Assembly (NCBI GenBank): GCA_902516925.1
Contig: CABYAF010000007.1
Span: 1-36,548 of the forward strand
DNA length: 36,548 bases
Direction: 5' to 3'
Source: an uncultured Bacteroidota bacterium
GTDB lineage: Bacteria; Bacteroidota; Bacteroidia; Flavobacteriales; Flavobacteriaceae
Shown: positions 557 to 27,980 of the stretch, in pieces
How the letters are laid out: each line of letters opens with the position of its first letter
Position numbering within the stretch: the first letter of the stretch is position 1
Program-made: the position numbers and the translations under genes
The notes under the pieces: generated by a model
Database searches by the model: none
Seen by the model: the letters and a program-made list of their open reading frames with translations, nothing else
What the model was told of the DNA's origin: nothing

Positions 557-1453
557 TTGAAAAAGATTGCTGCTATTGATATTGGATCCAATGCTGTTAG
601 AATGTTAATTTGCTATGTGATTCAATCTGGAAATCATCATATATTTCAAAAAAATTCTTACCTAAGACTGCCTTTAAGACTAGGAGAAGATTCTTTTATA
701 GATGGCAAAATCTCAAACAAAAAGATTAAAACTCTTTCTGATGCACTTATCTCATTTAAATATATAATGAGAGTCCATAAGGTTGATGAATATCAAATAT
801 ATGCTACCTCAGCTCTAAGAGAATCTAAAAACTCATTAAATGTTATTTCAGAGGTTGAAGAAAAATCTGGTTTAAAAATTAATTTAATTAGTGGTCTAAA
901 AGAAGCTAAAATTATAGCTAAAGGTAATTCATTATCTAAATTAGAATTTAATAAGGCTTATTTATATGTTGACGTTGGAGGAGGGAGTACCGAGTACTCA
1001 ATTTTAAGAAGAGGTGAAGACAAAATTTCTAAATCATTTAAAATAGGTACAGTAAAGCTTTTAAATAATACAATAGATCTCTTAACTGTAGATGAGATAG
1101 AGGATTGGATTACATCAAATATTGACCCAAATGAAAAAGTCAAGTTGTTTGCAACAGGAGGTAACATTAATAAAATACAGACAATTACAGGCACTAAAAC
1201 TGGTAAGCCAATTTCATATCTTTCTATAAAAAATCTACTTAACAACCTCCAGACATATAGTTACAAAGACAGAATGATTAAGTTTAATTTGAGCCCTGAT
1301 AGAGCTGATGTAATAGTTCCAGCATTAAAAATATTTATTTTGACTATGGAGTCAATAAGATCCAATAAAATGTTTGTTCCAAAGTTCGGGCTTGTTGATG
1401 GGATGATTAATGAGATATTTTATAAGAAAAATGGATGTAAACTAGATCCTTAA
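557..1453 (+). CDS. ppx: Exopolyphosphatase, Ppx/GppA family
   Basis: Predicted to release terminal phosphate from polyphosphate (or from pppGpp in GppA-type members). The 298-residue protein has the ASKHA-fold phosphate loops: AIDIGSNAVRM at residues 6-16, ATSALRES at 83-90 and DVGGGSTE at 139-146, then an ATGGN adenosine/phosphate motif around 200. It is the short form without the extra C-terminal domains of E. coli Ppx. The start is TTG, immediately after the ppk1 stop, and no ATG fits the conserved N-terminus. Its last 12 bases overlap the convergent dnaX tau extension. The usual ISGxEEA motif reads ISGLKEA (112-118), one acidic residue replaced by Lys. Polyphosphate is the likelier substrate because of the ppk1 linkage; GppA activity cannot be excluded. 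Confidence 0.9.
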   Translation: MKKIAAIDIGSNAVRMLICYVIQSGNHHIFQKNSYLRLPLRLGEDSFIDGKISNKKIKTLSDALISFKYIMRVHKVDEYQIYATSALRESKNSLNVISEVEEKSGLKINLISGLKEAKIIAKGNSLSKLEFNKAYLYVDVGGGSTEYSILRRGEDKISKSFKIGTVKLLNNTIDLLTVDEIEDWITSNIDPNEKVKLFATGGNINKIQTITGTKTGKPISYLSIKNLLNNLQTYSYKDRMIKFNLSPDRADVIVPALKIFILTMESIRSNKMFVPKFGLVDGMINEIFYKKNGCKLDP

Positions 1454-2002
1454 CTTAAACTCATCAATTAAAGAGCTTATAATATTGTTACTATCTTGAA
1501 TAATTTTAAGCTTTTCTTTACTATCTAAGAATGTCTTTTTATCTGTTTCCTTAGATAATCTAACATCAATATCTAAAGAATAATTATTAAGTTCTTTTGA
1601 TATAAATGTTTTTATTTTGACCTTATATTCTGTCATTTCTTTGAAATTCATTTTATTAATTGTGTCGATAATAATCATATTATTTTTAATAGATGGTTTA
1701 TTCATATTTAACAATGAGAGGATATTGCTATTACCTTTATCTCTTTCAGAATTACAGAACTTTTCCCACGCTATTTGAAAATCATTCTCAGTAAAATCAT
1801 CATTTGGAAGCTCTAAATCTGTATCATTAGTTTGTGCTTCAACAGACTTTTTGAAGGATAGGCTTGCTATTGATAAAGATGAAATATCTTTCTGTATAGG
1901 TTGGCTAAATAGCTTATCAGAATCTTTAGATTCAATAACATCAGCTTCAGGTATTATATCTTGAATGTTATTTATTAACTCAGTAGTCTTAATTAAAGAC
2001 TT
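1442..2002 (-). CDS. dnaX: DnaX tau-specific C-terminal extension, read in the -1 frame after the A10 run
   Basis: Reading the minus strand with one A re-read in the A10 run continues without a stop from dnaX to a TAG at 1442-1444, for a combined tau-like protein of 536 residues. The extension begins KSLIKTTELINN, then has an acidic linker, then a segment around FQIAWEKFCNSE and an alpha/beta tail ending DEFKLRI. A Trp-x-x-Phe helix and such a tail are typical of the DnaX C-terminus in this phylum, which in other bacteria binds polymerase alpha and DnaB helicase. It has no plausible independent start (only a TTG at 1714 inside the domain), so it is part of dnaX. Either programmed slippage makes both forms, or the homopolymer was miscounted and the gene is simply full length. 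Its end overlaps ppx by 12 bases. Confidence 0.85.
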   Translation of the reverse strand, partial: KSLIKTTELINNIQDIIPEADVIESKDSDKLFSQPIQKDISSLSIASLSFKKSVEAQTNDTDLELPNDDFTENDFQIAWEKFCNSERDKGNSNILSLLNMNKPSIKNNMIIIDTINKMNFKEMTEYKVKIKTFISKELNNYSLDIDVRLSKETDKKTFLDSKEKLKIIQDSNNIISSLIDEFKLRI

Positions 2003-2010
2003 TTTTTTTT
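1985..2010 (-). promoter_or_regulatory. Candidate dnaX slippage site: A10 run with adjacent 6-bp hairpin
   Basis: On the minus strand, ten A residues (2010 to 2001) are read as AAA AAA AAA A, followed by GT CTT TAA. A six-base dyad AGTCTT/AAGACT (1996-2001 with 1985-1990, loop of five) starts at the last A and contains the zero-frame stop in its loop. A -1 shift on A AAA AAA gives a further Lys and opens the tau frame. This resembles dnaX slippage sites of E. coli (ribosomal) and Thermus (transcriptional, A9). On the plus strand the same bases are a weak hairpin followed by T10, which could act as an intrinsic terminator for transcripts from the ppk1-ppx side. Confidence 0.6.
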
Positions 2011-3051
2011 AATGCTATCTAAAGATGCTAATTTCATTAAACATAGTTCAAGATGTATTCTTTTGTCATTAACTTTTTGATAATTGATTAAAGTATCATT
2101 AATAATCTCTATCATTGAGATTAGATTGTTATTTGATATATCTTTCGAATGGTCAAAATATCTTTTACTTAACTTGTTTTTGTAATCTGAAAGTTTATCA
2201 GATGAATTAAGACTATGGATAAGTATCTCTCTTAAATGCTTAGATAGTCCATTCAGAAAATTTATATCATCAAAACCTTTTATATATAACTCATTGTATA
2301 GATTAAGAATTCCTGGAATATCTTTTTTATTAATAAATTCAGATATCTTGAAATATGTATTAAAGTCTAGAACATTTAGGTTTGATGTAACTTCACTAAC
2401 AGTAAGATTTGAATCAGTGAAACTTACTAATCTGTCAAAGATTGATAAAGAATCCCTAATTGATCCATCAGATCTTTCAGCAATTAATGAGAGACAACCA
2501 TCTTCATATTTAACCTTTTTATCTTTACATATTTTTGATAATAGTTTTATAATAGATTCATTATCAACTTTTTTAAAATCATAGATCTGACATCTTGATA
2601 AAATTGTAGGTAAAATTTTATTTTTTTCTGTAGTTGCAAGAATAAAAACAACATGTTCAGGTGGTTCTTCTAAAGATTTGAGAAATGCATTAAATGCTTG
2701 ATTAGACAGCATATGAACCTCGTCTATTATATATACCTTATATCTTCCAGTCTGAGGAGGGATCCTAATTTGATCGGTTATATTTCTTATATCTTCTACT
2801 GAATTATTTGAAGCAGCATCTAATTCAAAAATATTAAACTCAAAGTCATCTTCTAAATCGTTTATTGTCTTTGCAAGAATTCTAGCACATGATGTTTTAC
2901 CAACTCCTCTTGGTCCACAAAAAAGTAAAGCTTGGGGGATATTATCATTCTTTATTGCATTATTTAATGTCTTCACAATAGCATCTTGACCAATCATATC
3001 ATTAAAGTTTTTAGGCCTATATTCTGAAGCAGATGAAATTGAATTTATCAT
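1993..3051 (-). CDS. dnaX: DNA polymerase III clamp loader subunit DnaX, zero-frame (gamma-like) product
   Basis: AAA+ ATPase of the clamp loader that places the sliding clamp on DNA. The 352-residue zero-frame product carries Walker A GPRGVGKTSC (about 46-55), ELDAASNN, Walker B IIDEVHML, sensor 1 and Arg-finger segment ATTEKNKI...LSRC, and sensor 2 SDGSIRD, followed by the oligomerisation domain. The zinc-binding Cys cluster normally between Walker A and ELDAASNN is absent, replaced by a short acidic stretch; I recall this in other Flavobacteriia DnaX. The frame ends two codons after a run of ten A residues (I-K-K-K-S-L-stop). Continuing one base back gives a much longer protein (next entry). 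A TAnnTTTG element lies just upstream of the ATG. Confidence 0.93.
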   Translation of the reverse strand: MINSISSASEYRPKNFNDMIGQDAIVKTLNNAIKNDNIPQALLFCGPRGVGKTSCARILAKTINDLEDDFEFNIFELDAASNNSVEDIRNITDQIRIPPQTGRYKVYIIDEVHMLSNQAFNAFLKSLEEPPEHVVFILATTEKNKILPTILSRCQIYDFKKVDNESIIKLLSKICKDKKVKYEDGCLSLIAERSDGSIRDSLSIFDRLVSFTDSNLTVSEVTSNLNVLDFNTYFKISEFINKKDIPGILNLYNELYIKGFDDINFLNGLSKHLREILIHSLNSSDKLSDYKNKLSKRYFDHSKDISNNNLISMIEIINDTLINYQKVNDKRIHLELCLMKLASLDSIKKKSL

Positions 3052-3953: not shown

Positions 3954-4680
3954 TTATTACTGAAAAAAATTTTTCTTCAAAATTGAGTATAGAATGAGTA
4001 TCATCTTCAATAAATTCAATACTTGAATATTTAGATGCTAGATTATAATATTTATCAAAGATTTCATGTCTACCTATAAATATAATTTTATCTTTTTTAA
4101 TTGATCTTTGGAAGTTTTTCAGAACAAAGAAGGTGTAATACAAGAATTCATTTTCATCAACTATTTCAAAGGTGTTAAAAAATACAAACTCATTTTTATT
4201 AAATATTATTATTTCAAAAGATTCACTACTTATTTTTATAAAAAATGATAATCCATCAGAGTTATCAATGACACCATCTAAATAATTATATAACTGAGTA
4301 AAATGATTTACATGAGTAGTGTTTTGTTTATCTAAACTCAAAGTATTTGATAAGTCTTTATTTTTTGAATAGACAACAGCAATTTTTTGATCAGTAGATA
4401 TATCCTCTTCAAGATTATTAACAAAGTCTGTATTAGTCTCTAAATACTTTGCCTTCATATCTTTATCGTAAAATTTAACTGGAATTATTGATGGGGCTGA
4501 ATTATAATGAACTATCTCTAATGATTTTAAAGATGAATTGTCTAATATATCTGAAATTTTAGACAACTTGACTTTATCAATGTATGTAGATGTGATGCCC
4601 TCATTTAAAAAGTTTAAATGAAAGAATGATTTAAATTGATAAATAGATGCTTTACTAATCTTAATCTTTGTTTTTAGCAT
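3931..4680 (-). CDS. DUF3822 family protein (actin-like fold family)
   Basis: A protein of about 249 residues that reads as DUF3822, a Bacteroidota family usually next to rsmD. Visible features are an N-terminal beta-rich half, a segment KIAVVYSKNK, a central LSFFIKISSESFEIIIF and the helix-rich ENEFLYYTFFVLKNFQ typical of the family; there is no signal peptide or membrane segment. From memory, a Bacteroides homologue structure has an actin-like ATPase fold, but the protein's function is unknown. The ATG at 4680 is preferred over the TTG one codon upstream. It overlaps the upstream pilin-like gene by 20 bases and rsmD by 23, so all three are likely one transcript. Confidence 0.75.
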   Translation of the reverse strand: MLKTKIKISKASIYQFKSFFHLNFLNEGITSTYIDKVKLSKISDILDNSSLKSLEIVHYNSAPSIIPVKFYDKDMKAKYLETNTDFVNNLEEDISTDQKIAVVYSKNKDLSNTLSLDKQNTTHVNHFTQLYNYLDGVIDNSDGLSFFIKISSESFEIIIFNKNEFVFFNTFEIVDENEFLYYTFFVLKNFQRSIKKDKIIFIGRHEIFDKYYNLASKYSSIEFIEDDTHSILNFEEKFFSVINADNIRD

Positions 4681-5317
4681 CAAAAATTGTAGGCCAATTT
4701 CCGCTTGTGCTCACATCACTCATTGATCCTAAAATAATTTCAGGTCCATTTACTCCATCTACAGATACGACCTTGTTTTCTTGATCAAGTAGATCTTTAT
4801 TTTGGTCAAATAAAACAATATCTTTTTTGACCTTAACTTCAAAAACAGGAACTTGGTATCCATTCTTATCAATTATATCAGCTTTTATTGAAAACTCTGA
4901 GTCAGTCCCGTCAACTGGAACCTTAGCCATCATTTTGTAGGATTCATTATCTCCGAATAAAGAGTCTTTAACTGAGACAAATCCTAATGTATCAACAATC
5001 TCTACTTCTTTTAACATATCAATCCTGTATGTTCTATTATACTCTAGATAGGATGAGTCCCTTTTCTCAATTACTGTAAAAATACCATTATCAATAAAAC
5101 TAACTAAACTGTCAAAATTATTTGCGTAAAACCCATTGACATCTTTATGGGCAATTTGAGCAGTCCTAATATCTTTTAGTCTGTCAATTACTTGAGTATA
5201 TCTATCGTTTTTTACTTGATTAAATTTTATTGGTCCATTAATAGAACTGTATATTTGTGAGGCGAAAAATATTGATAGAGCCCATAAAAATAATTCTAAT
5301 GCACGTTTTCTATTCAT
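4661..5317 (-). CDS. Membrane-anchored pilin-like protein, function unknown
   Basis: A 218-residue protein with a short basic N-terminus (MNRKR), one hydrophobic segment at about 8-25, then an amphipathic helix with KDIRTAQIAHKD...GFYANNFDSL (about 47-70). This resembles the alpha-1 region of type IV pilins and pseudopilins (single N-terminal helix, then an AQxAY...GxY pattern), although no prepilin peptidase site is obvious. The rest looks beta-rich and ends NWPTIFDAKNKD. Similar proteins are conserved in Flavobacteriia as unnamed hypotheticals. It is the first gene of a run with DUF3822 and rsmD and has a good TAnnTTTG promoter. It faces the periplasm if the membrane segment is an uncleaved anchor. 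Confidence 0.6.
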   Translation of the reverse strand: MNRKRALELFLWALSIFFASQIYSSINGPIKFNQVKNDRYTQVIDRLKDIRTAQIAHKDVNGFYANNFDSLVSFIDNGIFTVIEKRDSSYLEYNRTYRIDMLKEVEIVDTLGFVSVKDSLFGDNESYKMMAKVPVDGTDSEFSIKADIIDKNGYQVPVFEVKVKKDIVLFDQNKDLLDQENKVVSVDGVNGPEIILGSMSDVSTSGNWPTIFDAKNKD

Positions 5318-5340: not shown

Positions 5341-5373
5341 CAAATCTACAATTTTTTTTTTTTCGTTAAACAA
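5341..5373 (-). promoter_or_regulatory. Promoter of the pilin-like/DUF3822/rsmD run, with T12 in the spacer
   Basis: On the minus strand TAGATTTG (5341-5348) is a -7 box and TTG (5371-5373) a -33 element, separated by 22 bases. The spacer contains twelve consecutive T on the plus strand (5352-5363), so its length, and promoter strength, could vary by strand slippage. The gene start is 23 bases downstream of the box. Confidence 0.5.
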
Positions 5374-5408: not shown

Positions 5409-6131
5409 ATGAAAACTATAGCCTTAATCCCTGCAAGACTAGAGTCTAAAAGGTTTCCTAATAAATTAATTCAGGAAATAAATGGAGTACCTATTATCCT
5501 TAAGACATATAATGCTGCAATAGATACTGATCTTTTTGATGAGGTATATGTGGTAAGTGGAAATGATGAAATACTTAAAATGATTCAATCAGCTGGGGGT
5601 AAGACATTTAAATCTATTAATAATCATCAATCAGGTACAGATAGAATTGCTGAGGCGGCTATTGATATAGACTGTAATATTATTGTTAACCTTCAGGGTG
5701 ATGAACCATTTATCAATAAAATTGCATTGGTAGAACTAATTAAATCCTTTGATGATCCAAAAGTCAAAATGGCTTCACTTATGACAAAATTTAAATCCTT
5801 CAATGAGATAAATAATCCAAATAATGTAAAAGTAATAATCGATAATCATTCTGATGCGCTGTGTTTTTCAAGATTACCCATTCCATATGGATCAAAAAAA
5901 ATTAATGATTATAATCGTCATGTTGGTGTTTATGCATTTTTAAAGAATGCTTTAATTGAATTCTCTAGAATGGAAAGGTCAAACCTTGAAATTATTGAAA
6001 ATCTTGAAGGTCTAAGAATAATTGAAAACTCCAAAAAAATTAGAATGATAAACACAAACTTTCATGGAATATCTATAGACACTCCAGAAGATCTTTTAGA
6101 GGCGGAAAAATATTTGTCATCAGATGATTAA
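5409..6131 (+). CDS. kdsB: 3-deoxy-manno-octulosonate cytidylyltransferase (CMP-Kdo synthetase)
   Basis: Activates Kdo with CTP for lipopolysaccharide core synthesis in the cytoplasm. The 240-residue protein begins with the nucleotide-binding signature IALIPARLESKRFPNK (4-19) and has NLQGDEPFI (94-102), where the Asp coordinates Mg2+, plus the C-terminal IDTPEDLLEAEKYL. Length is typical. It is divergent from the pilin-like gene; no TAnnTTTG box is obvious in its own upstream region, which is an AT-rich stretch. The last eight bases overlap the acyltransferase start, so the two are likely co-translated. Confidence 0.94.
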   Translation: MKTIALIPARLESKRFPNKLIQEINGVPIILKTYNAAIDTDLFDEVYVVSGNDEILKMIQSAGGKTFKSINNHQSGTDRIAEAAIDIDCNIIVNLQGDEPFINKIALVELIKSFDDPKVKMASLMTKFKSFNEINNPNNVKVIIDNHSDALCFSRLPIPYGSKKINDYNRHVGVYAFLKNALIEFSRMERSNLEIIENLEGLRIIENSKKIRMINTNFHGISIDTPEDLLEAEKYLSSDD

Positions 6132-19804: not shown

Positions 19805-19843
19805 AGATTGTTTGAAGATAAACTATGCTTTGAACAATCTTTT
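19805..19843 (+). terminator. Intrinsic terminator after the tRNA pair
   Basis: AGATTGTTTGAAG (19805-19817) pairs with CTTTGAACAATCT (19828-19840) over 13 positions, two of them G-T wobble, around a 10-base loop, followed by four T. It starts eight bases after tRNA-Arg, as expected for the end of the tRNA transcript. It also argues against translation of the sulfatase from the TTG at 19808. Confidence 0.6.
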
Positions 19844-19858
19844 CTATATTCTTACTAT

Positions 19859-21385
19859 ATGAGGAATTATTCAATTATTTTCTTTCTATCATTAGTAATA
19901 TTTTCATGTTCAAAAACTGAAAATAGAGACACCTTCCCTAATATAGTTTTCATTTTAGGAGATGATTTAGGATATGGGGAAATTGGGATTTTAGGTCAAG
20001 ATAAAATTGAGACACCTAATATTGACGAGCTTGCAAAAAGTGGTATGATTTTAACGGATCATTACACTGGATCACCTGTTTGTGCACCTTCAAGATCTAT
20101 TCTTCTTACAGGCCTTCACTCTGGAAATAATCCAATTAGAGGAAATGATGAATGGAAAGAGAGAGGTGATGTTTGGAGTTTTGAAGCTATGTTTGATAAT
20201 CCTGAATTGGAGGGACAAAGACCATTGCCTGATTCAATTATAACAGTAGCTGATATTTTAAAATCACAAGGATATAAAACCGGAATGTTTGGTAAATGGG
20301 GTTTAGGTGCTCCAAACACTAACAGTATTCCAAATAATAAAGGCTTTGACTTCTTCTATGGTTACAACTGTCAAAGACAGGCTCACACATTCTACCCTAC
20401 ACATTTATGGAAAAATAAGGAAAGACATATATTAGATAATCAAATTGTCAATAAAGGAAGACTATCAATAGATCTTGATCCTAATAATGAAGAGAGTTAT
20501 ATTAAGTATAATCAAAAAGATTATGCTCCAACACTAATACATCAAGAAGCGCTAAAGTTTATTGAAAGAAATAAAGATGATAGGTTTTTTGTTTATTATG
20601 CTTCCCCTATTCCGCATTTACCTCTGCAAGCACCTGTTGAATGGGTAGATTTTTATAAGGAGAAATTTGGAGATGAGAAGCCATATACTGGAGGATCAGG
20701 GTATTATCCTAACCAATATCCAAAAGCTACTTATGCAGCAATGATATCATATTTAGATCAACAGGTTGGAGAATTAGTAAAAAAACTTAAAGAAATTGGA
20801 AAATATGATAATACTCTGATTATTTTTTCAAGTGATAATGGTCCAACTCATATTAAGCATGTAGATATTGATTTCTTTAATAGCGCTGGTCCCTTTTTAA
20901 ATTCAGAAAATACAGTAAAGGGTAATTTAAATGAGGGGGGTATTAGGGTTCCAACAATTGTAACTTGGCCAGATGTAATACCTTCTGGTTCAGAGTCTAA
21001 TCATCCAAGCACATTTTATGACTACTTTGCCACAGTCTCTGATTTAGTTGGCGTATCACCTCCATACAAAACAGATGGAATTAGTTTTCTACCTACTCTA
21101 AAGGGTAAAACTCAAGAAAAACATAAATATTTATACTGGGAGTTTCCTTCATATGGTGGACAGCAGGCTATAAGAATTGATAAATGGAAAGGTATTAAGA
21201 AGGGATTGTTCAAGGGCGAATCAAAACTAAAACTTTATAATTTAAGTGTTGATTCAAAAGAGTTAAATGATGTTGCATCTAAGCATCCTGATATTGTAAC
21301 AAAAATGGAAAACATGATGAAAGAGGCACATAATACTCCATCAATGGATATATTTAAAATACCAGTTCTAGAAAATGATAAATAA
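19859..21385 (+). CDS. Sulfatase (arylsulfatase-like lipoprotein) 1
   Basis: Type I sulfatase that hydrolyses sulfate esters, predicted on an envelope membrane facing the periplasm or outside. From ATG 19859 it has 508 residues: a lipoprotein-like signal ending IFSC (Cys17), metal-binding Asp pair in GDDLGYG (34-40), and the modified site CAPSR (75-79) in VCAPSRSILLTG, where Cys becomes formylglycine. Further motifs are FGKWGLG, GYNCQRQAHTFYPTHLW, PHLPLQAP and FSSDNGPTH, as in arylsulfatases of marine Bacteroidota and Planctomycetes. A TTG 17 codons upstream would lie inside the terminator and is rejected. The stop overlaps the next sulfatase by 11 bases. The substrate is unknown. Confidence 0.92.
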   Translation: MRNYSIIFFLSLVIFSCSKTENRDTFPNIVFILGDDLGYGEIGILGQDKIETPNIDELAKSGMILTDHYTGSPVCAPSRSILLTGLHSGNNPIRGNDEWKERGDVWSFEAMFDNPELEGQRPLPDSIITVADILKSQGYKTGMFGKWGLGAPNTNSIPNNKGFDFFYGYNCQRQAHTFYPTHLWKNKERHILDNQIVNKGRLSIDLDPNNEESYIKYNQKDYAPTLIHQEALKFIERNKDDRFFVYYASPIPHLPLQAPVEWVDFYKEKFGDEKPYTGGSGYYPNQYPKATYAAMISYLDQQVGELVKKLKEIGKYDNTLIIFSSDNGPTHIKHVDIDFFNSAGPFLNSENTVKGNLNEGGIRVPTIVTWPDVIPSGSESNHPSTFYDYFATVSDLVGVSPPYKTDGISFLPTLKGKTQEKHKYLYWEFPSYGGQQAIRIDKWKGIKKGLFKGESKLKLYNLSVDSKELNDVASKHPDIVTKMENMMKEAHNTPSMDIFKIPVLENDK

Positions 21386-22937
21386 AATTAGATTTCTAAT
21401 ACTCATTCAATTTATACTAATTGGATGTAAAACAAATGATTCCAAATTTAATCTACCTAACATTATTATAATTTATACTGATGATTTAGGTTATGGGGAT
21501 GTAAGTGCATATGGGAAAGGGACATTGAATACACCCAATATAGATAAACTGGCCAATGAGGGTATTAGATTTAATAATGGTTATTCAACCTCAGCTACAT
21601 GTAGTCCAAGTAGATATGGACTTTTAACAGGTAATTATCCTTGGAGAAAAAATGGGTTAAGAGTTATTACAGGTGGATCTTTAGTAATTGACACAACTGA
21701 GATGACTATTCCTAAACTTTTAAAAACAAAGGGTTACCACACAGGAATTGTCGGTAAATGGCATTTAGGATTGGGTTCAGGTGATGGTGTTGCAGGTTCA
21801 GGTATAATAAATTATAACTTAAATATTTCTCCTGGACCAAACCAAGTTGGATTTGACTTTTCTCATATTATGGCAGACACTCAAGATAGAGTTCCTTCTG
21901 TCTATATCGAAAATGGTAAAGTCGTTAATCTTGATCCAAATGATCCAATTGAGGTCAATTTTTTTCATCAAAATAAACATGATGATTATGGTTTGCCAAC
22001 TGGATTAAAAAATCCTGAAATGACAACAATGAAGTGGCATCATGGCCATAATGGTTCAATTATAAACGGTGTGCCAAGAATTGGTTACATGAAAGGTGGT
22101 AAAAATGCACTTTGGAGTGACATTAATATGGCTGATCATTTTCTAGATAAGTCAATAGAATATATAAAAGCCAACAAGTCTAGACCTTTCTTTCTTTTTT
22201 ATTCACTTCAACAACCTCATGTACCGAGAACTCCTCATCCAAGATTTGAAGGTTATTCTGGTATGGGGCCAAGAGGAGATGCTATTGTTGAGGCTGATTG
22301 GTCGATTGGAGAGCTATATAAGACTCTTCAAAATGAAGATTTATTAGATAATACTTTTATTATTTTTTCAAGTGATAATGGTCCAGTTTTAAATGATGGA
22401 TATTATGATGATGCTGTTGAAAAACTAGGAGATCATACTCCGTCAGGTGGACTACGGGGTGGGAAATATAGTCTTTTTGAAGCAGGTACAAGAGTACCAT
22501 TTATAGCATATTGGAAAGGAAAAATTAAACCAGGAGTTTCAAATGAAATAATATCTCAAGTTGATTTATTTAACTCAATTTCTGTTTTAGTTGGAGCAAA
22601 ATATAAGTCAACTGATGGAAATGATTTTTCACAACTTTTAATAAACAATAAAGGTAAAGGTAGAGATGAACTTATTATTGAAGCCTCAACAAGAACAGCA
22701 TATAGAAAAGGTAACTGGGTTATGATACCCCCATACAATGGACCTGCAGTTTCAGAAAATGTTAATATTGAGCTAGGTAATTCATTAGATTTCATGCTAT
22801 ATAACCTAAAAGAAGATCCATCTCAAAAAAATAATTTGTCTATAATTAGAAAAGATAAGTTGAAGGAGATGATTTCAAGTTTTGTAAGAATAAGGGGTAA
22901 GAATTTCTCCAACATAGAAGACCTTATTCTTGAATAG
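21375..22937 (+). CDS. Sulfatase (arylsulfatase A-like lipoprotein) 2
   Basis: A 520-residue type I sulfatase. The signal ends in a good lipobox LIGC (Cys18), followed by the metal-binding YTDDLGYGD (34-42) and the formylglycine site CSPSR (76-80) within ATCSPSRYGLLTGNYPWR. GKWHLGLG, PHVPRTPHPRF, FSSDNGPV and GGLRGGKYSLFEAGTRVPF match arylsulfatase A-like enzymes. The ATG lies inside the last codons of sulfatase 1 (11-base overlap), so both are made from one message. It converges with sulfatase 3, overlapping by 14 bases. The substrate cannot be assigned from sequence. Confidence 0.92.
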   Translation: MINKIRFLILIQFILIGCKTNDSKFNLPNIIIIYTDDLGYGDVSAYGKGTLNTPNIDKLANEGIRFNNGYSTSATCSPSRYGLLTGNYPWRKNGLRVITGGSLVIDTTEMTIPKLLKTKGYHTGIVGKWHLGLGSGDGVAGSGIINYNLNISPGPNQVGFDFSHIMADTQDRVPSVYIENGKVVNLDPNDPIEVNFFHQNKHDDYGLPTGLKNPEMTTMKWHHGHNGSIINGVPRIGYMKGGKNALWSDINMADHFLDKSIEYIKANKSRPFFLFYSLQQPHVPRTPHPRFEGYSGMGPRGDAIVEADWSIGELYKTLQNEDLLDNTFIIFSSDNGPVLNDGYYDDAVEKLGDHTPSGGLRGGKYSLFEAGTRVPFIAYWKGKIKPGVSNEIISQVDLFNSISVLVGAKYKSTDGNDFSQLLINNKGKGRDELIIEASTRTAYRKGNWVMIPPYNGPAVSENVNIELGNSLDFMLYNLKEDPSQKNNLSIIRKDKLKEMISSFVRIRGKNFSNIEDLILE

Positions 22938-24345
22938 TTTTATTATCTGTTAATAATTTCACCAATTCTTTTTCAGGAATGCTAATTGGATCATTTATCA
23001 TTTGAATCCAATTATCTAATTGTTCCCTTAAATTATTTATTTCCTTATTGAATCTGATATCATCAATAATGTTATTCAATTCAAAAGGATCATTTTCTAA
23101 GTCATAGAACTCTTCAAAACTTTTAGGATTTCTAAACCAAAGCTTTTCTTCTTTTGATAATAATTCATTATCGTTTAGATAAGATAGATGCCTCATTAAT
23201 TTCATTTGAGACCTGTATTTGTTATCAATAGCATGTGGAATATTAATATTATAGTTTCTAATATACTTGTACCTTTTTGATTTTACTGCCCTTATCTTTT
23301 CAGGTACTTCATCAAATCTATCACTAGCTGTAAATAAATATTTCCTTTTGTTTTTGTTTTTATTTGAACCAAGAAAGGCTCTGCCTTGATATATTGCTGG
23401 AATATCAATTCCAGTAATTGATAATATTGTAGGAGCAAAGTCTATAAAATTAAGAAGATCCAGATTTCTTTTATTTTTTATGTTCATACTTTTTGGAAAT
23501 TTAATTATTAACGGAACTTTTGAACCTGTTTCATATATTGCTCTTTTGTGTCTTGGGAAAGGACCACCATGATCGCTATAAAAAAATATATAGGAATTAT
23601 CATAAAGATTTTGCTCCTTAAGTCTTTGAATTATCATTCCTATTTGTTTGTCGGCTTCTAGTATATTTGAGTAGTTGACTGCCATGGAGTGTCTTGTAAT
23701 CGAATCATTTGGAAAAAATGGAGGTACTTTTAAATTTTCAGGATTAACTTGCAGCTTCTGCTCATCTCTTATCCAAATTTGAGATTCATGGGTAATTCCA
23801 AAATTAAATACAGAAAAGAATGGCTCACTTCCTTCTCTGTTTTCCCATGAAGCATTAATACTGGAATCATCCCATGCTTCTTTTGTCAATTTAAAATTAT
23901 AATCTTCTTTACTATTATTTGAAGTGTAATAACCATTCTCTCTTAAAATTTGAGTAAATGGTTTAATCTGTTCTGCAAATTTTGATGAGTAGAAAGGAAA
24001 TCCTAGTTGTTTTTCGTGTTCTTCTCTTTCAGCTCTGTAATAACTATAAGCCCTTTGATTCCCAGTTCCAATTGAATTTGGGTACATGCCAGTAATAATT
24101 GCACTTCTTGATGGAGCGCACACTGGATATGGAGAGTTCATTCCTTCATATACAATTCCATTATCTAGTAGCTGATTTATGTTCTGTAACTCAATAGTGT
24201 TATCTCCATAAAATGGAAAAAAATATTGAGATTGATCTTCTAAAACTAGCCAAATGACATTAGGTTTTATGGCTTCATTTACTTGACAACTATTTACAAC
24301 AAAAAAACTTGTAAGTATTGAAGTAAAAAATAATTTTTTTCTCAT
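22924..24345 (-). CDS. Sulfatase 3, sulfamidase-like (heparan N-sulfatase type), opposite strand
   Basis: A 473-residue sulfatase on the minus strand. The lipoprotein-like signal ends VNSC (Cys20). The metal site is LEDQSQ instead of the usual DD, and the formylglycine motif is CAPSR (76-80), followed by ITGMYPNSIGTGNQR, a pattern I associate with sulfamidase-like (SGSH-type) sulfatases. YSDHGGPFPRHKRAIYETGSKVPLIIKFP carries the second metal-binding Asp-His pair. The C-terminus has FYDLENDPFELNN. It lies between and opposite to the other sulfatases, with its own -7 box. Activity on N-sulfated amino sugars is a guess from family resemblance. Confidence 0.88.
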   Translation of the reverse strand: MRKKLFFTSILTSFFVVNSCQVNEAIKPNVIWLVLEDQSQYFFPFYGDNTIELQNINQLLDNGIVYEGMNSPYPVCAPSRSAIITGMYPNSIGTGNQRAYSYYRAEREEHEKQLGFPFYSSKFAEQIKPFTQILRENGYYTSNNSKEDYNFKLTKEAWDDSSINASWENREGSEPFFSVFNFGITHESQIWIRDEQKLQVNPENLKVPPFFPNDSITRHSMAVNYSNILEADKQIGMIIQRLKEQNLYDNSYIFFYSDHGGPFPRHKRAIYETGSKVPLIIKFPKSMNIKNKRNLDLLNFIDFAPTILSITGIDIPAIYQGRAFLGSNKNKNKRKYLFTASDRFDEVPEKIRAVKSKRYKYIRNYNINIPHAIDNKYRSQMKLMRHLSYLNDNELLSKEEKLWFRNPKSFEEFYDLENDPFELNNIIDDIRFNKEINNLREQLDNWIQMINDPISIPEKELVKLLTDNKTIQE

Positions 24346-24367
24346 AAAAATTGGTAAATTAATATAT

Positions 24368-24375
24368 CAAATTTA
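24368..24375 (-). promoter_or_regulatory. Promoter of sulfatase 3, -7 box TAAATTTG
   Basis: Read on the minus strand, TAAATTTG matches TAnnTTTG and lies 22 bases upstream of the sulfatase 3 ATG, in the 41-base gap between divergent sulfatases 3 and 4. No clear -33 TTG at normal spacing. Confidence 0.4.
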
Positions 24376-24386
24376 TTATTATCAAA

Positions 24387-25784
24387 TTGAATAAATTTAA
24401 ACTTTTAGTAATCTTATTATTAGCTTTAATTGTCATTAATTGTTCTCAAAATGAAAGCAAAGCCAATAAACCAAATATAATTATTATTCTTGCTGATGAC
24501 CTTGGATATGGAGATATAGGTGTTTTTGGAAATAAGAATATTAGAACACCTAATATTGACGAAATGGCATTTGAGGGACAAAAATGGACAAATTTTTATG
24601 CTGGAGCCAGTGTGTGTACTCCCAGTAGAGCTGCACTTCTGACGGGTAGACTTCCACTAAGAACTGGTTTAACAAGTAATGTAAGAGGAGTCTTATTCCC
24701 AAATTCCTTAAACGGGATTCCCCAATCTGAAATAACAATTGCTGAACAACTCAAGAAATCAAATTATAAAACGAAATTAGTGGGTAAATGGCATTTAGGT
24801 AACAAAGAAGATTATTTTCCTATGAATCATGGATTTGACTCATGGTTTGGATTACCTTATTCAAATGACATGGATAATGTATCAAATATGAATTATTGGG
24901 ATATGTGGAAAAGTGATGAGAGAAAAAATTACAATAATTTCAATGTCCCGTTAATATTTGATAATAAAATTATCGAGAGACCTGTTGATCAAAGAACAAT
25001 AACTAAAAGATATCTTAATGAATCATTAAAGTTTATTGAAGAAAATAGTGATGATAATTTCTTCCTTTACTTAGCTCACAGTATGCCTCATGTTCCTTTA
25101 TTTTCATCTGAAATGTTTGAGGGTAAATCTATTGGAGGTCCCTATGGGGATGTAATAGAAGAAATAGACTATGGTGTTGGAGAAATTATTAATAAAATTA
25201 AAAAGTTAGGCTTATCGGATAAAACAATTATTGTATTTACATCCGAGAATGGTCCTTGGTTAGAAATGGGTCAAGAAGGAGGAACCGCTGGTATGTTAAG
25301 AGGAGGAAAGGGCTCAACATGGGAGGGAGGCATAAGAGTTCCAACCGTAATCTGGGGGCCAGGTTATGTTAAGCCAGGTGTAGTTGATGATATTGGAACA
25401 TCAATGGACTTATTTTCAACCTTCAGTTATTTGGCTGATGTCGAGGTTCCTTATGATAGAATAATTGATGGCAATAACTTAAGTAATGTTTTTAAATCAT
25501 TATCTAAAAGTCCGACCGAAAGTTTTTTTTATTACTGGGGGTCAGAACTAATGGCTGTTAGATATAAGTCTTATAAATTACACCTCAACTTACATGAGGC
25601 ATATGATGGAAAACCAATGGAAACACTTGAAACACCATTATTATATAATCTTGATAATGATCCTTCCGAGAATAATAATATCTATGAAGATAATCTTGAT
25701 ATTTTAAATAAAATTGATCAGATTACAAAAAAACATAAAAGTGATTTAATAATTGCAAAGGATTTATTAATAGATTTGAAATAA
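24387..25784 (+). CDS. Sulfatase (arylsulfatase A-like lipoprotein) 4
   Basis: A 465-residue type I sulfatase starting with TTG, chosen because it gives a complete basic-hydrophobic signal (MNKFKLLVILLLALIVINC, Cys19). Metal site LADDLGYGD (35-43), formylglycine motif CTPSR (77-81) in VCTPSRAALLTGRLPLRTG, then GKWHLGN, HSMPHVPLF, TSENGPWLEMG and RGGKGSTWEGGIRVP are typical of arylsulfatase A/GALNS-like proteins. The Asp of the usual SDNG is Glu here (SENG), as in several family members. It begins the plus-strand run sulfatase 4, sulfatase 5, FGE-like, DUF4442, NMO, with two bases to sulfatase 5. Confidence 0.92.
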   Translation: MNKFKLLVILLLALIVINCSQNESKANKPNIIIILADDLGYGDIGVFGNKNIRTPNIDEMAFEGQKWTNFYAGASVCTPSRAALLTGRLPLRTGLTSNVRGVLFPNSLNGIPQSEITIAEQLKKSNYKTKLVGKWHLGNKEDYFPMNHGFDSWFGLPYSNDMDNVSNMNYWDMWKSDERKNYNNFNVPLIFDNKIIERPVDQRTITKRYLNESLKFIEENSDDNFFLYLAHSMPHVPLFSSEMFEGKSIGGPYGDVIEEIDYGVGEIINKIKKLGLSDKTIIVFTSENGPWLEMGQEGGTAGMLRGGKGSTWEGGIRVPTVIWGPGYVKPGVVDDIGTSMDLFSTFSYLADVEVPYDRIIDGNNLSNVFKSLSKSPTESFFYYWGSELMAVRYKSYKLHLNLHEAYDGKPMETLETPLLYNLDNDPSENNNIYEDNLDILNKIDQITKKHKSDLIIAKDLLIDLK

Positions 25785-25786
25785 TT

Positions 25787-27403
25787 ATGATTAGAAATCT
25801 ACTTACAGTCTTAATATTTAGTATTTTTTTTGGAACCAGTTGTGAAAAAGAGGATGGTGTTAAACCTAATATATTATTCATAATGTCTGATGATCACGCT
25901 TATCAAGCAATTAGCGCTTATGATGATAGGCTAATTCAAACTCCAAACATCGATAGAATTGCAGATGAAGGAATGTTGTTTACTAATGCCTCGGTAACAA
26001 ACTCAATATGTGCACCCTCAAGAGCAGTTATATTAACTGGTAAACACAGTCATATTAACGGAAAAATAGATAACATTGCAAAATTTGATGATTCTCAGAT
26101 GACTTTCCCCCAATTATTTAAAAAGAATGGTTATCAAACAGCTATGTTCGGAAAACTACACTTTGGAAATAATCCGAAAGGTATTGATGATTTTCTGATT
26201 CTACCAGGTCAGGGAGATTATATTAATCCTAGATTCCTAGGAAAAGAGAAGGATACAATTATTACTGGATATGTAACAGATGTTATTACTGACTTAACAT
26301 TAAACTGGTTTAAAAATAAAAGAGATGATGATAAGCCCTTCTTAACATTTTATCTTCATAAAGCTCCTCATAGGGCATGGTGGCCAAGTCCTGAAAAGTT
26401 TGCTGAATTTTATAATAAAAAGTTTCCTGAACCAGAAACTCTTTATGATGATTATTCCAATAGGGGTACTGCTGCAAAAACTGCTGAGATGAATCTACTT
26501 ACTCATATGCAATACATGCAAGACAGCAAAGTTCGTCCTTCAGTGTTTGAAAAAATGGAGAATGTAGAGCCAAAAATTGTTTATGCAAGAGGTGATGGAA
26601 CCTTTTTTGAACCTAGCTCTAATTCTTTTAATAACCGTTATGATAGAGCTAATGAGGAGCAAAAGAAAAAATATGATATCACATTAGATAAAATCAGTAA
26701 AGATTTTGAAGCAAATTGGCCAAATATGACCAATAAGCAAAAAATGCAGTGGAAGTTTCAACGATATATGCAAGACTATTTGGCAACCATTTCATCTGTA
26801 GATGATAACGTCGGTAGAGTTTTAGACTATCTGGAAGAAACAGGACTTGATAAAAACACTATTGTTGTTTACACTTCAGATCAAGGATTCTATCTTGGTG
26901 AGCATGGATGGTTTGATAAAAGGTTTATTTATGATGAGTCTTTCAAAACCCCACTAATGATTAAATGGCCTAATCAAATTAAACCTGGAACAACAAATGA
27001 GGAAATGGTTCAAAATCTTGACTTTGCTCAAACCTTATTAGAAGCTGCAATGATTGATGCACCAAAAGATATGCAGGGTGAAAGTCTGATACCATTATTA
27101 AAAGGAAATTCTGATAAATGGAATAGGGAATCAGTTTATTATCATTATTATGAGTATCCTTCAGTTCATATGGCAAAAAGACACTATGGAATAGTTAATA
27201 AAGATTATAAGTTAACCCATTTTTACTATGATGTTGATGAGTGGGAATTATATGATCGTAAAAATGATCCAAATGAAATGAATAATATTTATAATGATCC
27301 TAATTATAAGGATATTGTTGACAATTTAACACAAGAATTAAAAGAACTTAGAATTAAATATAAAGACTCGGAGGAACTAGATAAAAGCTTTATATATAAT
27401 TGA
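25787..27403 (+). CDS. Sulfatase 5, N-acetylglucosamine-6-sulfatase-like surface lipoprotein
   Basis: A 538-residue type I sulfatase. The signal ends GTSC (Cys19), and the residues after Cys (E-K-E-D) match the Bacteroidota lipoprotein export signal X-K-(D/E)2, predicting display on the cell surface. Metal site MSDDHAYQAISAYDD (33-47), formylglycine motif CAPSR (75-79) in ICAPSRAVILTGKHSH, and the late motifs TSDQGFYLGEHGWFDKRF, PLMIKWP and YDRKNDPNEMNN resemble N-acetylglucosamine-6-sulfatases. A central insert of about 100 residues contains long charged helices. One base separates it from the FGE-like gene. Confidence 0.9.
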   Translation: MIRNLLTVLIFSIFFGTSCEKEDGVKPNILFIMSDDHAYQAISAYDDRLIQTPNIDRIADEGMLFTNASVTNSICAPSRAVILTGKHSHINGKIDNIAKFDDSQMTFPQLFKKNGYQTAMFGKLHFGNNPKGIDDFLILPGQGDYINPRFLGKEKDTIITGYVTDVITDLTLNWFKNKRDDDKPFLTFYLHKAPHRAWWPSPEKFAEFYNKKFPEPETLYDDYSNRGTAAKTAEMNLLTHMQYMQDSKVRPSVFEKMENVEPKIVYARGDGTFFEPSSNSFNNRYDRANEEQKKKYDITLDKISKDFEANWPNMTNKQKMQWKFQRYMQDYLATISSVDDNVGRVLDYLEETGLDKNTIVVYTSDQGFYLGEHGWFDKRFIYDESFKTPLMIKWPNQIKPGTTNEEMVQNLDFAQTLLEAAMIDAPKDMQGESLIPLLKGNSDKWNRESVYYHYYEYPSVHMAKRHYGIVNKDYKLTHFYYDVDEWELYDRKNDPNEMNNIYNDPNYKDIVDNLTQELKELRIKYKDSEELDKSFIYN

Positions 27404-27404
27404 T

Positions 27405-27980
27405 ATGAAAAAAATATTCCTAATCTTATTTATTGCTCTTGCTTCATGCACGTCTCCTAAAGATTATAATATTAAGACTATTTCAGTTAAGGAATTCAGA
27501 GACTTTATTAATGATACTGGTTATATAACTAGTGCAGAAAAGTATGGTTGGTCCTTTGTTCAAGAAAATGTTTATGATTATAAAGTTATCAATGGTGCAA
27601 ATTGGATGAAACCAGATGGTATCAATTTCTCAATTGATAGTCTACCTGTAACACAAGTAAGTTACAAAGATGCAATTGAGTATTGTAAATGGGCAGATGT
27701 TCAACTTCCGACATATGAGCAGTATTGGGAATTAGTATCCTCAGATGATAGATTAATAGTTTCAGATAATATATATCCAATTTCTTCTGTCCAATCTGTA
27801 AATATTGTTGGAAATGTTTGGGATATTACTGAGCCTGGTAACCTAGATCAAGTAAGACTAGCAGGTGGATCTCTATTTTGTTCAATAGATACTTGCCATG
27901 GAACTCAAGAAGATAGAGAACTGTATGTTGATAAAGAAACTGGTAATATTCATATTGGATTTAGTATTTTAACAGAATAA
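27405..27980 (+). CDS. Small formylglycine-generating-enzyme-like (SUMF1) lipoprotein
   Basis: A 191-residue lipoprotein (lipobox LASC, Cys15; no surface-export signal after it) with a compressed FGE/SUMF1 domain. Matches to FGE are FRDFINDTGYITSAEK (31-46), FVQENV, NGANWMKPDG (63-72), LPVTQVSYKDAIEYCKWADVQLPT (80-103), GNVWDIT (136-142), VRLAGGSLFC and NIHIGF near the end. Both FGE catalytic cysteines appear in the correct C-x4-C spacing (Cys159, Cys164). The usual central region (YPWG and NxFGLYDM) and the RYRxAAR block after the cysteines are missing; normal FGEs are about 300 residues. Lying directly behind five Cys-type sulfatases, it may modify their Cys to formylglycine in the periplasm. 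It could also be a non-catalytic SUMF1 domain. Confidence 0.75.
   Translation: MKKIFLILFIALASCTSPKDYNIKTISVKEFRDFINDTGYITSAEKYGWSFVQENVYDYKVINGANWMKPDGINFSIDSLPVTQVSYKDAIEYCKWADVQLPTYEQYWELVSSDDRLIVSDNIYPISSVQSVNIVGNVWDITEPGNLDQVRLAGGSLFCSIDTCHGTQEDRELYVDKETGNIHIGFSILTE

Follow-up and report, generated by a model that had tools for sequence, protein, structure and literature searches.

A candidate site of transcriptional slippage where gamma and tau diverge in dnaX, conserved across much of Bacteroidota with either product as the default frame

The dnaX gene is the standard example of a single gene from which two clamp-loader proteins are made by recoding. In Escherichia coli, as described in the accessible text of PMC3711429 and PMC5009743, the short form ends just past the shift site, where an in-phase A AAA AAG is accompanied by a Shine–Dalgarno (SD)-like stimulator and a stem-loop. 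In Thermus thermophilus the A9 run of dnaX is a site of transcriptional slippage (Larsen et al. 2000, in the account available from PMC5009743 and PMC1088944); tau is templated there and mixed mRNAs were reported. The portion of Antonov et al. 2013 (PMC3711429) available to us describes a new dnaX organisation, in which tau is made by recoding, in 17 genes from 12 genera, nine of them with A10; two adjacent ORFs are joined by a -1 step at poly-A, for which transcriptional slippage was proposed. The 2016 review, in the part of PMC5009743 at hand, notes that the roles can be swapped by changing a single base. According to the excerpted text of PMC3017870, Blochmannia dnaX and other endosymbiont genes are broken at poly(A) tracts, and the text seen of PMC3971599 does no more than tabulate whether flavobacterial endosymbionts have dnaX.

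We analysed a stretch of 36,548 nucleotides (hereafter the window; contig CABYAF010000007.1) from an uncultured member of the Flavobacteriaceae, whose source assembly (GCA_902516925.1) comprises 0.99 Mb in 33 contigs and is rated 63% complete. The dnaX gene lies on the minus strand. Its zero-frame ORF (3051..1993) encodes a gamma-like protein of 352 residues with an AAA+ clamp-loader domain, lid and domain III, which matches PF13177 (1e-36), PF22608 (2.8e-9) and PF12169 (1.3e-7) in Pfam and reaches 371.7 bits against NCBIfam TIGR02397 dnaX_nterm (cut-off 250). At the end of domain III, the plus strand carries T10 at 2001–2010, i.e. A10 followed by G on the coding strand, read in the zero frame as ATT AAA AAA AAA AGT. 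Past the run this frame continues AGT CTT TAA, so the protein ends in SIKKKSL at a stop two codons downstream (1995..1993), and the third frame reads GTC TTT AAT TAA, ending three codons downstream (1989..1991). When one A is re-read, a frame is open from 2002 to the TAG at 1444..1442 (tau-specific extension, 1442..2002), which gives 186 codons with the re-read AAG counted in and a tau-like product of 350 + 186 = 536 residues. The three frames thus run 2, 186 and 3 codons to a stop, and the zero-frame and third-frame stops together shut both non-tau frames. A preliminary description of this DNA, made from its letters, had already reported the split at A10 with a 352-residue zero-frame product and an open continuation to 536 residues in total, and this holds on the minus strand; only its length of 180 codons for the continuation was slightly low. 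Residues 53–185 of the tail resemble NCBIfam NF011531 gamma/tau (profile positions 480–612 of 614, 7.9e-15, 54.7 bits), a fragment match that does not reach the whole-protein cut-off of 685, and against Pfam the tail has no match below E 0.05.

Our main reading, to which we assign a probability of roughly three in four, is that this is a programmed slippage site at which RNA polymerase slips on the A10 run and both gamma and tau are made. Slipping would produce a mixed pool of mRNAs with differing numbers of A's: the 352-residue gamma-like clamp loader would come from messages in which the ten A's are as templated or changed by a multiple of three, the 536-residue tau-like protein from those that gain one A (10 + 1 + 3n), and a gamma-sized protein again from third-frame messages, which stop three codons past the run. 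From sequence comparison we infer slippage, its transcriptional nature and the production of both proteins; the length and purity of the run, its independence of codon phase, the closure of both other frames, the occurrence of both shift directions and the absence of any conserved stem-loop are all consistent with polymerase slippage. Since the hairpin next to the run is not supported (see below), the Thermus-like, transcriptional reading is placed ahead of the E. coli-like one.

The gene type has already been published by Antonov et al. 2013, and the window is a further case of it. As in the two-ORF dnaX genes of that study, so far as its accessible text describes them, two adjacent ORFs are separated by a -1 step in the DNA at poly-A, the arrangement recurs in several genera and the tail is homologous to tau; some of its nine A10 genes may be from Bacteroidota. 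Going beyond the cases described in that text, the present collection has 245 loci with the run, with both defaults side by side and the switches between them counted. The likeness to the Thermus gene, in the published outline of it, is a long sense-strand A-run at the gamma/tau boundary (A10 in the window), nearby stops in both non-tau frames (after 2 and 3 codons here) and gamma and tau from one gene. However, in Thermus tau is templated and mixed mRNAs are on record, whereas the window templates gamma and is known from its sequence; the window would work like the Thermus gene in reversed arrangement. With the E. coli gene, as given in the sources cited above, it shares the derivation of two clamp-loader proteins from one gene and a short form that ends just past the shift site, but the window has no in-phase A AAA AAG (its codons are AAA AAA AAA AGT), no SD-like stimulator and no conserved stem-loop, and its short form is the default. 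Blochmannia dnaX likewise has a frame break at poly(A) where, in the available part of PMC3017870, transcriptional slippage may restore tau; that break, however, is said to lie downstream of the gamma-making slippage site in the tau-only part, whereas the run of the window marks the gamma/tau boundary and is shared by many relatives.

In the genus sample of 25 genomes, 22 had a dnaX match; in the other three (G013, G014 and G023) the matches were weaker and looked like paralogues. An A-run stands at the same place in 22/22 loci, as A10 in 8, A11 in 13 and A12 in one, and both non-tau frames stop within 5 codons in every one of them. The closest named relatives are uncultured marine Bacteroidetes assemblies, e.g. 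AG-447-E18 and AG-894-I17 (95% protein identity), and a more distant one is ‘Cryomorphaceae bacterium MED-G11’ (78–79%), so the source organism is probably marine; four near relatives at 84–95% protein identity have the identical A10 in the identical phase. A kept run with a near stop, which the preliminary description had proposed to look for in relatives, is therefore present throughout the genus, and its proposal of slippage with the short form as default is supported by comparison of these sequences, 14 of the 22 loci being gamma-default. It had also taken in-frame runs in related genomes as the mark of a sequencing error. Eight of the 22 loci are indeed in frame and tau-default, each with a long A-run and stops in both other frames; judged by their sequences, these eight are the mirror arrangement and no correction of the break. 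On a tree of the N-terminal part (22 rows) the default changes four times within the genus, and well-supported branches alone force two changes.

To follow the site further, we searched 149 genomes of the family (144 matched, own included), 60 of the order (55 matched) and 90 of the phylum (88 matched), and tabulated 274 distinct dnaX loci; 23 of the 80 new phylum-level matches were left out, and those taken in were chosen partly for family spread. A run of at least eight A's is kept in 245/274 loci: 22/22 in the genus, 141/143 in the family with 6/6 more from later searches, 40/48 in the order and 36/55 in the phylum sample. Hence the restriction of the site to ‘this lineage’ in the preliminary description was too narrow; it holds there, and it also extends through family and order and to 36 of the 55 sampled phylum-level loci. 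Among the 245 loci the run is A10 in 168, A11 in 36, A9 in 32 and of other length in nine, and among all loci tabulated it occurs in all three codon phases. It is also found in 12 loci whose dnaX has a GC content of about 50% or more (up to 0.64), with loci of 54–64% GC among those that carry it. Tau is the default frame in 176 loci and gamma in the other 69, gamma-default loci being present in the genus, family, order and phylum groups. In 64 of these 69, tau is reached by one extra A and in five by one fewer or two extra; the five are few, and assembly error is possible in some of them. Contig ends fall inside the tau tail in 5/245 loci.

The 29 loci without a counted run are mostly phylum-sample loci with no A-run of eight or more at the site (19); the other ten comprise two with another cassette, one with an eroded run, one that has lost its tail, four that are too divergent and two at contig ends. 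At the eroded site (L071, genome G044) the sequence is GGAAAAG TAA, with no A-run and with a tau tail that remains open when read in the -1 frame, which may represent an error, decay or another mechanism. In L306, from an order-level relative with a very reduced genome (G187, a single contig of 0.34 Mb), dnaX encodes 343 residues and the tau tail is gone, leaving a gamma-only clamp loader. The dnaX genes of order genomes of 0.6 Mb (L314–L317) are very divergent and have A8–A11 runs at varying places.

Both non-tau frames stop within 6 codons of the run in 207/245 loci and within 10 in 234/245, compared with 19.4% and 36.9% of 81,236 control codon boundaries in the N-terminal parts; the control spans 252 loci, before seven more were dropped, and the loci are related, so this contrast does not represent independent trials. 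The closure within 6 codons is seen in 150/176 tau-default loci, in 52 of the 64 gamma-default loci that need one extra A and in 5/5 of the remaining gamma-default loci. Runs of nine or more A's are rare elsewhere in the same genes, with 13 outside the site in 288 kb of N-terminal coding sequence of the 274 loci. Moreover, 20–36% of Lys codons elsewhere in these dnaX genes, depending on the group, are AAG, and thus the encoded protein does not require the run to be unbroken. From this conservation, the site appears to be a working device and sequencing error appears unlikely.

Selection on the tail was compared between loci with and without a required shift. In the six nearest gamma-default species, among which the tau-default L009 branches, the N-terminal part has a dN/dS of 0.077 and the tail, which is open for 182–185 codons, one of 0.207; in seven further gamma-default species the values are 0.074 and 0.203, and in a tau-default clade of five they are 0.083 and 0.245. 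The window tail is homologous to the tails of 114/116 tau-default family loci (phmmer E<1e-3). By these estimates, purifying selection acts on the tail as protein about equally strongly in loci that need a shift to reach it and in loci that do not, and this is our best evidence for the production of tau here.

On a FastTree tree of the 245 loci a minimum of 37 changes of default frame is needed, compared with a mean of 60.5 and a minimum of 53 in 100 shuffles of the labels; the default state is thus clustered and yet often switching. The count is 38 on 249 rows, with four divergent loci still in, and falls to 28 when the rows are the 169 from genus and family; all three counts were taken on FastTree trees irrespective of branch support. 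Because both non-tau frames are shut at once, only two size classes of product would arise whichever frame is encoded by the DNA, and hence a change of one base could turn a tau default into a gamma default, or the reverse, with neither product lost. A wider history, for which we judge the odds to be even, is that an A10 gamma/tau slippage site is ancestral to most Bacteroidota and slips so efficiently that the frame written in the DNA is nearly neutral; lineages would then drift between defaults, with selection holding only the run and its two flanking stops, and some lineages would have swapped in a ribosomal cassette.

Four other explanations of the window have to be weighed against polymerase slippage. 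Ribosomes might slip back one base on AAA AAA AAA to produce tau, as in E. coli with roles reversed, which we regard as unlikely. The zero frame does contain A AAA AAA, the direction needed here is -1, and such a shift could serve the window and 63 like loci; in tau-default loci the one-extra-A frame, which equals the -1 frame, closes fastest, and it closes within 0–3 codons in 212 of all 245 loci, a pattern that suits a ribosomal shift as well as the insertion of one A. However, five gamma-default relatives need the opposite direction, so a single -1 ribosomal shift cannot serve them, and mixed direction is taken as a sign of transcriptional slippage in the available text of Antonov et al. 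2013. A AAA AAG is out of the zero-frame phase in the window, and by eye no SD-like word was seen in the 40 nt upstream of the run. Within the genus, an SD-like word occurs within 16 nt upstream in 1/22 loci and an adjacent GGAG in 0/22. In the wider family, by comparison, GGAG directly precedes the run in 82/141 loci (e.g. L102, L123 and L149) and an SD-like word lies within 16 nt in 100/141, versus 9.3% of control positions; this GGAG may reflect a conserved D-G-E peptide, or an SD-like stimulator may be present there, and the ribosomes of Bacteroidia are reported, in the text consulted of PMC9976891, not to use SD pairing. As for RNA structure, the preliminary description had noted a 6-bp dyad that begins at the end of the A-run and holds the zero-frame stop in its loop. 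It is present (AGTCTT-TAATT-AAGACT, 2001..1985), but as part of the device it does not stand: it starts inside the run, the 66-nt stretch containing it is weak (-6.1 kcal/mol, z -1.66, with 16/200 shuffles as good), and among the genus loci it has 6 bp in 3/22 and 5 bp in one more. Downstream of the run, the median predicted structure is also weaker than in a control stretch 300 nt upstream, not matched for composition, in 4/4 groups, although five tau-default genus loci (L018, L019, L020, L021 and L023) reach -9.8 kcal/mol or lower in the 61 nt downstream. The hairpin was therefore rejected as a stimulator, and the dyad is probably incidental to the codons for S-L-I-K-T. Even so, ribosomal slipping on the run may contribute alongside polymerase slippage.

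A sequencing or assembly error that hides a run truly in the tau frame is very unlikely: homopolymers are error-prone and the source assembly is fragmented and incomplete, but the same A10 in the same phase recurs in the four near relatives, 14/22 genus loci are gamma-default, and at least nine gamma-default genomes elsewhere are single contigs (G085, G049, G047, G218, G227, G174, G190, G201 and G234). Phase variation in the DNA, by which cells with A9, A10 or A11 would each make one protein or the other, is in line with the mutability of long homopolymers and with the variation of run length and default frame among species; we think it extremely improbable, as the length is narrowly kept at 10 (168/245), the stops that close both non-tau frames fit the presence of both products in each cell, and a contingency locus would hardly be expected in a replication gene. 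Finally, the gene might be decaying, with tau lost and gamma alone made, to which the short zero frame and the lost tail of L306 in its tiny genome lend something; next to no credence can be given to this for the window, where the six nearest gamma-default species retain a tail open for 182–185 codons at dN/dS 0.207.

Ribosomal signals are much clearer in two order-level loci, L266 and L294 (genomes G192 and G221, family code f7), which have no A-run and carry CCA AAA AAG TAG at the same place; strong stem-loops (72 nt folding at -28.0 and -20.8 kcal/mol) come after A AAA AAG UAG there, gamma is the default and tau lies in the -1 frame. From its sequence, this looks like an E. coli-like ribosomal cassette with the roles reversed, and ribosomal shifting in dnaX probably occurs in this order. 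The four other f7 genomes examined (L258, L268, L296 and L299) have A10. Both solutions thus seem to occur in one family, which suggests that the two products are selected and not one mechanism.

If polymerase slippage is indeed the mechanism, a large part of the phylum makes both dnaX products in this way, and an apparent frameshift in dnaX in a Bacteroidota assembly may belong to a normal gene. Repeated default switching would then provide many natural replicates for the gamma:tau ratio demanded by selection, and the slippage site and the ribosomal cassette could be compared side by side within one order. In full-text literature searches, which left subscription papers largely outside, we did not find the extent of the site in Bacteroidota, the repeated switching or the cassette swap described.

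The possibility that frame-breaking A-runs are generally tolerated in this genome was examined and rejected. The 0.99-Mb assembly has 16 distinct runs of A10 or more (overlapping matches merged), and two long same-strand frames meet at a run only at dnaX. Six other such runs that lie in same-strand open frames were read: four precede the first ATG or lie at most 7 codons from it; the other two, further inside a delta'-like holB (A11) and a 442-residue ORF (A10), are in frame. The in-frame A11 of the delta'-like clamp-loader gene (L002/L035, C1:73106-73116 of the same genome) is early in the ATPase domain, and relatives L028, L031 and L032 have A9–A11 at that site, in frame by eye. Elsewhere in the window, T12 at 5352–5363 (A12 on the minus strand) lies between the divergent ORFs 4661–5317 (-) and 5409–6131 (+). 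At 19808–27980 there are five neighbouring ORFs, one of them on the minus strand, which we take to be sulfatase-like, followed by a small ORF that presumably resembles a formylglycine-generating enzyme domain.
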